The notes under the pieces are model-generated. The model did not search any database, was not told the DNA's origin, and was given only the letters and a program-made list of their open reading frames with translations. Positions 18,465 to 22,352 of a DNA stretch of 23,738 nt are shown here, piece after piece. The stretch is from positions 1 through 23,738 of the IMG/VR virus record IMGVR_UViG_3300032092_000260. The stretch is one strand, 5' to 3'. A program made the translations under genes and the position numbers. This DNA comes from a virus. The first letter of the stretch is position 1; each line of letters begins with the position of its first letter.

Positions 18465-20042
18465 TTAAAAATCAATTTCTTCATTATTTATTATTATATC
18501 TTTCTGATTATCAATAATTTGCTCTTTTTCAATTTTTGAACGAAAGTAAAAAGGTGCGCCAGTAATCATTGAAGTTGTCTGAGAATGTTTGTTAAAAGGT
18601 AGATATTTTTTAACTTTTAGTGTTTCAATTTTCATTTCTTCCTTTATAACTTTTCTAATATAAGATATACTTATTTGATTATTATTTAAAAACCATTCAT
18701 TTTTAATATCTCCTGCAGTTGCTTCAAATTCATTTACATTATTGTTATTAAAAAAGAAATCTAAATGATATTCAATTTCTTTACAAAGACTAGATTTTGA
18801 TTCGTTTTTAATACTATCAAGTGCAGTAGTTTTTATTTCATCTTTAGTAAATACCATACGAGATAATGAAAAATCAATATCAGGTAAATCTGTTAATAGT
18901 TTTAAAAATTTAGGTATTTCAGTTGTTAAATCTTCTTCAATATTTGTATTTCTTTTTCCTTTTATAGGGTTAATTTTACGAACCCAAAAACGTATTTCTT
19001 CGTCATCAATACGCATAAAGTCATTTTCTTTGTTTGTGCATATAATAACTTTACCAAAAAAAGGCACAGAATAATGCGCTACAAATTTTTGAGATACTGA
19101 CATTGATTTTGCAGTTGCTATTGATTTAAGTTTTTCAACAGTATTTTGTTTTTCAATCACAGTTTCATCAATCATAATTATATTTTTCGTAGCGTATGAG
19201 TCATTAAATCCAGAAGCTAAATCACTTGGATTGATTAACGTAGAATTTTCGCCAAATAATATTTGAATATAATTAAGAAATGTAGTTTTTCCAGTTTCAC
19301 GTTCAGTTGAAACAAGTGCTAATATTGGCATTATTTGTTTAGGATGCTCATAAATAACCTTCATATATTTTAATCCAAGTTCCCATTGTTCTCCAAAAAT
19401 ATGTTTTATTAATCCTATTGTGGTAGGTATATCATTTAATGAAACATCTCCATCAAATGGTTCGTGTGAGAATTTAGAATATAGATTATAGCAGTTATTT
19501 TCAACAGGTATAAATTCCTTGTTATTTGGAATAATAGTAAAATCGTCAAATCTATTAATGTGGTCTATTAATTTTTTACCGTGATCATCTGTAATTGTTG
19601 ATTTGTCCCATTTTTTTAATATTGTTTGTGGCACACCATATCTATTAGTTTTATTAAAAACTTTAAATAAATCAATACCTACACGGATATAAGGTATATC
19701 ACTTTTCATTACATAAAAATTAATAAAGCTAATAGCGTGATTAGTATTACCTTTAAATTTTACTGCAGCTAAAAGCATAAATTTTGATATACTTTGTCCT
19801 GTTGCTAAATCAAAAGAATTTTGTTTGTTAACGTCAACTAATCCATTTTTATTTAAAACAAAAGTAGGAGATTTAGAAGTTATTTCTCCTGTTTTTTCTA
19901 TTGTAACAAATGTAGCTGAATTATCAGTATAAGATATACAACCCTTTGTTGATTCAAAAATTTGCTCAAAAGTTCCAAAGAAATTAAAATAGTCTACTGG
20001 AGTTAGTAATGGGTTTGATTCTGGTTTCTTAAATTTGCTCAT
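18465..20042 (-). CDS. SF3-type replicative helicase (phage/plasmid primase-helicase family)
   Basis: The 525-aa protein carries the superfamily 3 helicase core: Walker A TERETGKTT (246-254), Walker B NIIMIDE (287-293), sensor KVIICTN (331-337) and RFWVRKI (351-357) with a likely arginine finger. The first 240 residues are unlike a catalytic primase and may bind DNA or a partner. The last 130 residues may form a winged helix (FEATAGDIKNEWFLNNNQISISYIRKVIKEE). SF3 helicases unwind the origin and fork of small replicons; P4 gp-alpha is a known relative. The primase is encoded separately upstream. The leader of about 145 nt contains a large stem structure. Confidence 0.85.
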   Translation of the reverse strand: MSKFKKPESNPLLTPVDYFNFFGTFEQIFESTKGCISYTDNSATFVTIEKTGEITSKSPTFVLNKNGLVDVNKQNSFDLATGQSISKFMLLAAVKFKGNTNHAISFINFYVMKSDIPYIRVGIDLFKVFNKTNRYGVPQTILKKWDKSTITDDHGKKLIDHINRFDDFTIIPNNKEFIPVENNCYNLYSKFSHEPFDGDVSLNDIPTTIGLIKHIFGEQWELGLKYMKVIYEHPKQIMPILALVSTERETGKTTFLNYIQILFGENSTLINPSDLASGFNDSYATKNIIMIDETVIEKQNTVEKLKSIATAKSMSVSQKFVAHYSVPFFGKVIICTNKENDFMRIDDEEIRFWVRKINPIKGKRNTNIEEDLTTEIPKFLKLLTDLPDIDFSLSRMVFTKDEIKTTALDSIKNESKSSLCKEIEYHLDFFFNNNNVNEFEATAGDIKNEWFLNNNQISISYIRKVIKEEMKIETLKVKKYLPFNKHSQTTSMITGAPFYFRSKIEKEQIIDNQKDIIINNEEIDF

Positions 20043-20067
20043 TGTTTTTCATATTTATAAAATTACA

Positions 20068-20141
20068 AAACCATTATTGATGCGTTTGGGCTACCAACCC
20101 TAGACAGGCTCTAACCCCCGTCAACACACCAATAATGGTTT
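20068..20141 (-). ncRNA. Structured leader element upstream of the helicase
   Basis: The arms 20124-20141 and 20068-20085 pair over 18 bp on the leftward transcript, with two G.U wobbles and a 38-nt G/C-rich loop. The outer 12 bp are a perfect inverted repeat (AAACCATTATTG). On the opposite strand the wobbles become A.C mismatches, so the fold favours leftward RNA. The loop contains GGGTTGGTAGCCC, itself a small hairpin. The element stands out from its A+T-rich surroundings. No known RNA family recognised. Confidence 0.6.
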
Positions 20142-20192
20142 AAATGTTTTTTATGTTAGAGTATATTAATCCGTTGGTTATTCGGATATTTG

Positions 20193-20200
20193 CAAATATA
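20193..20200 (-). promoter_or_regulatory. -7 box of probable helicase promoter
   Basis: Leftward this reads TATATTTG, a full match to the TAnnTTTG consensus. No TTG is found at the expected -33 position, where the sequence is TTTT. It lies inside a 17-base segment (20191-20207, TGCAAATATAATAATTA) that is also present at 22319-22335 over the early promoter. Confidence 0.5.
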
Positions 20201-20224: not shown

Positions 20225-20599
20225 TTAATTAGTTAATACATTTTTTAATTCAAATATTTCAAAAAATCTAGATAAGTAATTAATATTTAATTCACTACAA
20301 TTATTTAAACATATTGATATTATTATTTTAGGATTTATTTTGAAAACATTATGATATTGCTTATAAACAGATATACTATCTATAATATTAGTAAAAGCTA
20401 GTAAATCATTTTTATTAATATCTAAATCGTCTATAAATATTACTTCAGTATCTTTATTGCAGTCTCCAAATAAAAAATTACATTTCATTAATTCATTTCT
20501 TCCGTTTATTATTACACTTTTATTATTAGCCATTAATAAATTAGCTAATCTAGATTTACCACTAAATTGTTTTCCTATTATTAAAATTCCTTTTTTCAT
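20225..20599 (-). CDS. Minimal P-loop ATPase (AAA+/SF3-like)
   Basis: Only 124 aa, yet it has a complete motif set: Walker A GKQFSGKS (9-16), Walker B VIFIDDLD (53-60), a sensor-like KIIISICLNN (91-100) and an SRFFEIFEL segment with Arg111. The order and spacing match the core of an SF3/AAA+ helicase without an N-terminal or C-terminal domain. It follows the primase by one base. A full SF3 helicase is encoded just downstream, so this is a second, stripped-down ATPase. It may load the helicase, or it may be a decayed VirE-type helicase. No trace of the missing domains was found in the flanking DNA. Confidence 0.7.
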   Translation of the reverse strand: MKKGILIIGKQFSGKSRLANLLMANNKSVIINGRNELMKCNFLFGDCNKDTEVIFIDDLDINKNDLLAFTNIIDSISVYKQYHNVFKINPKIIISICLNNCSELNINYLSRFFEIFELKNVLTN

Positions 20600-22072: not shown

Positions 22073-22211
22073 GTTTGTTTAGTTTTAAATAATCAATATT
22101 AGAAAATTTATACCCTTCAAAATCTACTATCTTTTGAACTGCATGGTAAATGGTTTCGGCTAAAACATTGAACTTTCTGCCAGTTGGTGATTTAATAAAA
22201 TATGTTTTCAT
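22065..22211 (-). CDS. Small ORF, first gene of early leftward transcript
   Basis: A 48-aa frame runs from the ATG at 22211-22209 to the TAA at 22065, overlapping the nuclease start by 8 bp. The sequence starts MKTYFIKSPTGRKFNVLAET, followed by IYHAVQKIVDFEGYKF. It looks like a small alpha/beta protein with a basic start. Its position right after the structured leader and its overlap with the next gene support translation. No family recognised. A short regulatory or anti-host early protein would fit the position, but nothing in the sequence shows this. Confidence 0.6.
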   Translation of the reverse strand: MKTYFIKSPTGRKFNVLAETIYHAVQKIVDFEGYKFSNIDYLKLNKHD

Positions 22212-22226
22212 ATTGGTAAAATAAGA

Positions 22227-22309
22227 AACCCACCTAAAAAGAAGTTGCGATTTCCTTTTAAATGGGTTCTTTTAACTATTAAAGTTAAATTTTTGAATCT
22301 GTCGCAACT
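22227..22309 (-). ncRNA. Pseudoknot-like leader of the early transcript
   Basis: Two interleaved perfect pairings are seen. AGTTGCGA (22243-22250) pairs with TCGCAACT (22302-22309), and AACCCA (22227-22232) pairs with TGGGTT (22263-22268). The first pair starts inside the loop of the second and closes outside it, an H-type pseudoknot topology. A third hairpin, TTTAACT (22271-22277) with AGTTAAA (22283-22289), lies within the larger loop. The structure begins at the predicted transcript 5' end and stops 15 bp before the first ORF. Not a known riboswitch that I recognise. Confidence 0.55.
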
Positions 22310-22320
22310 CAGATATTCTG

Positions 22321-22352
22321 CAAATATAATAATTAATTTTCTTTAATGCAAA
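22321..22352 (-). promoter_or_regulatory. Early promoter for the leftward replication operon
   Basis: Leftward this is TTTG (22352-22349), exactly 20 nt, then TATATTTG (22328-22321). This is a full Bacteroidetes -33/-7 match. Transcription would start at about 22313-22316, just before the pseudoknot-like leader. Confidence 0.75.

Follow-up and report, generated by a model that had tools for sequence, protein, structure and literature searches.

A structured leader RNA, apparently of an undescribed class, at the heads of gene clusters in flavobacterial phages

The helicase leader and its surroundings

The stretch of DNA analysed here, called the window, comprises 23,738 nucleotides of IMG/VR record IMGVR_UViG_3300032092_000260, and its leftward (-) strand carries a DUF5906 helicase/primase-type gene (18465..20042, 525 aa) in whose leader the element under study is located. 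A 124-aa ORF with a P-loop-like motif (GKQFSGKS; 20225-20599, leftward strand) lies between the primase gene and the leader; it has no match in Pfam or PHROG and is missing at that site in the 93%-identical phage L001. The nearest relatives of the helicase in viral contigs (93-100% identity) retain the leader, while in several relatives at 57-68% identity the primase and helicase genes abut without it, and promoter and leader therefore behave as a module that some primase/helicase junctions have and others lack.

The leader is preceded by a promoter -7 element, TATATTTG (20193..20200, leftward strand), found by pattern match to the Bacteroidetes consensus TAnnTTTG. Matches to this motif in the AT-rich window are near chance (50 found, 42.5 expected), so the promoter call rests on position and on recurrence, the motif being present upstream of every leader collected. 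Transcription of the leader would begin from this motif, by which the start site was placed. About 5 nt past the -7 element lies a 5' hairpin, H1 (20169..20187), of the form ATCCG-AATAACCAA-CGGAT, and its loop contains the pentamer ACCAA (20174..20178), the 5' side of a loop pairing that we call K2. A second 5' segment, CTCTAAC (20155..20161), provides the 5' side of another loop pairing, K1, and is joined to the stem that follows by an A-rich linker, ATAAAAAACATTT (20142..20154), which is conserved in the alignment of 21 leaders described below.

Beyond the linker is an inverted repeat with arms of 19 nt each (20068-20086 and 20123-20141), which are 89% complementary as DNA and 36 nt apart. 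Because both mismatches between the arms become G.U pairs in the leftward RNA (they are A.C on the other strand), the stem of that RNA consists of 19 pairs. Folding of the leftward RNA gave -38.0 kcal/mol compared with -19.1 kcal/mol for shuffled sequences (z -6.0, with none of 200 shuffles as good), and folding of the rightward strand gave -23.5 kcal/mol (z -3.6). The minimum-energy fold of the leftward RNA is a three-way junction in which an outer stem, P2, encloses two inner hairpins, P3 and P4. The right arm of the repeat (20123..20141) is the 5' strand of P2 and the left arm (20068..20086), located by repeat search and by the type I alignment, is its 3' strand. P3 (20103..20122) reads GACGGG-GGTTAGAG-CCTGTC, with the K1 partner GTTAGAG in its loop (20115-20109), and P4 (20088..20100) reads GGG-TTGGTAG-CCC, with the K2 partner TTGGT in its loop (20097-20093). 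As shown by covariation among relatives, the repeat corresponds to the outer part of a larger fold in which the loops of P3 and P4 pair back to the 5' end of the leader. Directly after P2, a U-rich, terminator-like tail (20056..20067) runs into the translation start region.

The initial annotation of this DNA had described an 18-bp stem closing a 38-nt loop; the stem is real, and its size was off by one pair (19 pairs and 36 nt). Its observation that two wobble pairs are G.U in the leftward RNA only and A.C on the opposite strand proved correct, and the second hairpin that it noticed in the loop, GGGTTGGTAGCCC, is P4 (20100-20088). About half of the whole fold had thereby been seen, and P3, H1 and the two loop pairings had been missed, as had a related leader at 22320-22212 and the membership of both in a class that occurs at several operons per phage.

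Covariation and distribution of the fold

An exact P3 pattern matched only two near-identical contigs, and a longer P3-P4 pattern added the related phage L019. Relatives with a differing H1 loop were gathered by a pattern scan of viral contigs, and 21 distinct leaders of this kind (type I) were aligned. Over the six elements H1, K1, K2, P2, P3 and P4, standard pairs fill 98.7% of 853 pair cells, and both partners vary in 27 of the 41 pairs; these counts come from related sequences, so that cells are not independent events, and from a structure derived from the same sequences. Controls in which the alignment was slid are 27-40% paired, and the covariation score is 0.571, compared with 0.172 for shuffled and 0.03-0.06 for slid alignments. 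By element, P2 is 98.7% paired with 13 of 15 pairs doubly changed, P3 100% paired with four of six (for instance GACGGG/CCTGTC in the window and GACAAG/CTTGTC in L019), and P4 100% paired with three of three. All seven pairs of K1 are standard in 21 of 21 sequences, five of them being doubly changed, and single positions show as many as four pair types. K2 (97.1% paired) shows a C-G to G-C exchange between the window and L019 on one side and the other 19 sequences on the other, and in H1 96.1% of pairs are standard over the 21 sequences, with one pair doubly changed. Mutually unrelated groups (the window with L019, the L032 group, the L068 group and L079) each retain the fold, and the sequence is nearly free outside the A-rich linker and the H1 loop of type I, which makes the fold hard to find by sequence search. 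A covariance model of type I scored 113.6 bits on the window, which was part of its training set.

The asymmetry of wobble pairs in this alignment (33 G.U cells, 5 A.C cells), together with the two-sided changes, upholds the proposal of the initial annotation that an RNA of the leftward strand folds in the helicase mRNA leader. Related phages in which pairing is broken without compensation had been named there as the outcome that would speak against an RNA; the opposite was seen. We are almost certain that a conserved fold exists and that it is RNA of the leftward strand. An inverted repeat beside replication genes might also serve as DNA, either as a replication origin or as a recombination site with dyad symmetry, but such a DNA element is extremely unlikely given the excess of G.U over A.C in type I and in the type II alignment presented below, the loop pairings, which a DNA cruciform does not need, and the occurrence of relatives on either strand, also at operons other than those for replication. 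A replication origin as the general role was rejected, since relatives head other operons.

In the contigs of relatives, the same order of interleaved pairing (S1 ... P2 ... S1' ... P2' ... T-run ... ATG) recurs past TAnnTTTG with unrelated letters. When whole contigs were scanned for pseudoknots without constraints, the noise was too high for the scan to be used alone: thousands of matches appeared at loose thresholds, and nearly as many in shuffled sequence. Among 43 sequence-distinct leaders picked solely by promoter motif, length and following ORF, 16 had an interleaved helix pair beyond all 100 shuffles, and 19 reached p 0.05, where about two are expected. Type I heads replication operons that are built from non-homologous genes, the families so led being DUF5906 helicase, DnaB-like helicase, Toprim/DnaB primase-helicase, Lin1244-type and DUF6291 replication proteins and SNF2-type helicase. 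Exactly one strong type I copy was present in 10 of the 20 phage records tested.

A second set of leaders (type II) is found on both strands ahead of other early genes, and one of them, leader 2, lies in the window itself (22226..22314, leftward strand, by direct reading). Its -7 element, again TATATTTG (22321..22328, leftward strand), was found by pattern match through its similarity to the first promoter. H1 of leader 2 (22314-22297, leftward strand) is ATCTG-AGTTGCGA-CAGAT, and an 18-bp hairpin follows (22269-22226, leftward strand) whose loop sequence TCGCAAC (22250-22244) is complementary to GTTGCGA (22308-22302) of the H1 loop. Both leaders of the window thus have a 5' hairpin with a loop complementary to a later loop (ACCAA/TTGGT and GTTGCGA/TCGCAAC). 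Leader 2 precedes a 48-aa ORF (MKTYFIKSPTGRK...) starting at 22211; its relatives sit ahead of similar small ORFs in other phages. Seven leaders of one type II subgroup were aligned over H1, an 8-bp loop-loop helix, P2 and P3, the other type II leaders being listed individually. This alignment, which is independent of type I, is 98.6% paired, with 15 of 31 pairs doubly changed, 100% loop pairing, and 14 G.U and no A.C cells. Judging from the aligned leaders, type II is a simpler, also covarying relative of the type I fold that heads other operons.

Leaders of the same topology occur in cultured phages as well, with shuffle p values of 0.005-0.02. The Flavobacterium elemo phages carry three leader variants at one site of the replication operon, with the loop helices GTGAGATG/CATCTCAC, TGAGAGCT/GGCTCTCA and GTGGAGG/CCTCCAC. 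In Riemerella phage RAP44, two leaders whose 5' helices measure 15 bp stand before genes at or next to annotated antirepressors. The two RAP44 leaders (L190, 13712 on the plus strand and 30567 on the minus strand) are homologous to each other, their 15-bp 5' helices covary and an inner hairpin is common to both.

No convincing leader was found in Fpv5, Cellulophaga phi46:1, Bacteroides SJC10 and B124-14 or Flavobacterium 6H, where matches were AT-only. Neither did 299 Flavobacterium genomes contain a convincing copy by the type I model, the two matches (L184 and L185) being ordinary terminators made of a stem plus a T-run. A blastn search of phage and plasmid records for DNA homologues returned chance matches only, and alignment of the helicase against genome contigs found none.

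Comparison with known RNA families

A scan of the window with Rfam 15 gave no match at the gathering threshold and a relaxed scan gave nothing convincing, in agreement with the earlier impression that no known RNA family has this form; among 10 related loci scanned against Rfam only a tRNA reached the cut-off, and a tRNA/tmRNA search found none. The S15-Flavobacteria leader (RF03161) resembles the window leader in its flavobacterial promoter and A-rich stretch. It was rejected as an identification: the score of 35.9 bits (E 0.0019 in a 251-base search) is below the gathering threshold of 46.5, the partial match covers the promoter and linker of the window and not the fold, the next gene is a phage helicase and not rpsO, and the match did not recur in the other leaders searched.

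Type III toxin-antitoxin RNAs (ToxI-type) are tandem pseudoknot repeats located before a ToxN-like endoribonuclease gene. They share with the present leaders a pseudoknotted RNA that extends from a promoter to a terminator ahead of a gene. This candidate was also rejected, as the leader has no direct repeats and is followed by the DUF5906 helicase with no toxin gene; unlike in toxin-antitoxin loci, the genes after the leaders are varied replication and early genes.

The leaders are also comparable to the put elements of phage HK022, which are RNA elements in phage early transcripts that form a specific RNA contacting RNA polymerase (PMC9378689). Here as there, a structured, 5'-proximal RNA is found in cis on phage early transcripts, more than once per phage. 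Compared by description, the two differ in that the helix sequences of our leaders are freely exchanged, while the loop pairings to the 5' end and the terminal U-run are constant. Antitermination of this kind, in which the leader would bind RNA polymerase so that downstream pauses and terminators are ignored and the U-run would serve as a pause for folding, fits the conserved structure and the presence, within one phage, of 5'-terminal RNAs at the heads of several operons, as for HK022 put in early transcripts (PMC9378689). We nevertheless think it quite unlikely, since an RNA that binds polymerase is expected to keep a sequence motif and the sequence here is nearly free.

In overall layout (promoter, folded leader, GC-clamped stem with U-run, and first gene directly after), the leaders also resemble attenuators and terminator-type riboswitch leaders, from which they differ in having no conserved sequence resembling a ligand pocket and in a stem that encloses other hairpins. 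A further difference concerns alternative pairing. Of the 21 type I leaders, 20 have a predicted local hairpin that would compete with P2, the exception being L079; most type II leaders lack one too. A classical antiterminator/terminator pair is therefore not shared by the whole family, and a universal antiterminator switch was rejected. A search of the openly accessible journal literature found no description of such a leader. The leaders appear to be a new family within a known broad kind, the cis-acting leader RNA, with an architecture unmatched to any described family; on the basis of the sequences compared, the same fold, written in almost wholly different letters, appears to head gene clusters in many flavobacterial phages as an undescribed class of RNA control.

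Possible roles of the leader

The element is very probably a cis-regulatory structured leader RNA that makes up the first ~135 nt of the phage operon mRNA. The combination of promoter, compact fold and U-run would also be expected of an independent gene for a small RNA that acts in trans, made up of promoter, folded RNA and terminator, the phage gene being just its neighbour, but a start codon occurs ~10-30 nt past P2 in nearly all leaders measured, and we regard such a gene as very unlikely. Moreover, the sequence of the fold differs among phages and among the operons of one phage, which points to action in cis.

As a function in cis we favour, tentatively, a co-transcriptional termination gate. 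P2 and the U-run would act like an intrinsic terminator; pairings of the 5' end, which can form before P2 is complete, would set whether P2 closes, or at what speed, during the time that RNA polymerase spends on the U-run, and the operon would be read or cut short according to the outcome. When polymerase has moved on into the operon, this fold would keep the 5' end closed and the start region open. What suggests this is the sequence at the 3' end of the leader, where a GC-rich stem base is directly followed by a U-run: in type I the outer four pairs of P2 are 73% G-C, compared with 27% for the inner eleven, and the tails contain on average 5.9 T in the first 8 nt, whereas helices of equal stability at other places in these contigs are followed by a mean of 2.77, and by at least 6 T per 8 in only 3% of cases. 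Type II tails are 72% T, and generic start regions in these contigs have ~27% T per position. The hallmark of start regions in F. johnsoniae is A's, at -3, -6 and -14 to -11 (PMC6847099), which likewise favours the gate. The hairpin of leader 2 was scored as terminator-like by a consensus scan, the two matches of the type I model in Flavobacterium genomes are plain stem-plus-U-run terminators, and the predicted hairpin competing with P2 in type I is likewise consistent with a gate. Against it, P2 of type I, with 15-19 bp around 30-40 nt, exceeds usual terminators in length and is not as compact; the U-run is interrupted in the window (TTTTGTAATTTT) and in several type II tails, and the window tail, TTTTGTAA, with five T in eight, is among the weaker ones of type I. 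In addition, the U-run could serve S1 or translation start, and the distance from the end of P2 to the start codon, 17-21 nt in 19 of 20 type I leaders measured and 28 nt in the window, suits a role in translation as well.

That spacing bears on another possibility, namely that the knotted fold blocks 5'-end-dependent decay and leaves the start region unpaired, so that the phage mRNA would be long-lived and well translated, with the U-run as an unstructured spacer. H1 begins ~5 nt from the -7 element, the linkers are A-rich and unpaired (those of type II leaders are nearly always unstructured), and the 17-21 nt between P2 and the start codon place the end of P2 at the edge of a low-structure zone, which in F. 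johnsoniae extends from -20 to +20 around the start (PMC6847099). On the other hand, a plain 5' hairpin would suffice for protection, the GC clamp and U-run would be left unexplained, and the spacing to the ATG is looser in type II, and for these reasons we hold this role to be somewhat unlikely.

If the leader does act as a termination gate, its 5' strand, lying within a few nt of the start site, might allow the operon to tell its own transcripts, which have a free 5' end, from readthrough. The full proposal, that phages of Flavobacteriia share a class of leader RNAs, defined by topology and not by sequence, in which pairing of the 5' end with loops inside a terminator-like stem decides whether polymerase reads on, is in our view unlikely. 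This common and well-supported RNA fold sits at the very heads of early and replication operons; to our knowledge, Bacteroidetes do not use Shine-Dalgarno sequences. Were the termination gate correct, it would be a novel mode of polymerase control, exerted by the 5' end of the transcript itself, and were mRNA protection correct, the leader would offer a portable stabiliser for Bacteroidetes genetics. The cultured elemo phages on Flavobacterium sp. BAL314 are a ready system for work on the leader fold.

Three minor observations concern individual phages. In L019, four leaders of the class lie within 10.7 kb (3909, 6685, 7680 and 10447, plus strand), and their loop-pairing sequences are all different, as if cross-pairing between leaders were avoided. 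The contig L175 (DIHL01000034.1), which is binned in the Bacteroidetes MAG UBA5697, encodes a terminase 90% identical to that of the window and is possibly a lead to the host, or else a mis-binned phage contig. Finally, an ATG 18 nt past P2 in the window opens a 7-codon ORF (MKNNEQI; 20052-20029, leftward strand) that overlaps the helicase start; the ATG at the matching place in L019 opens a 62-aa gene, and the window may therefore have lost this gene.
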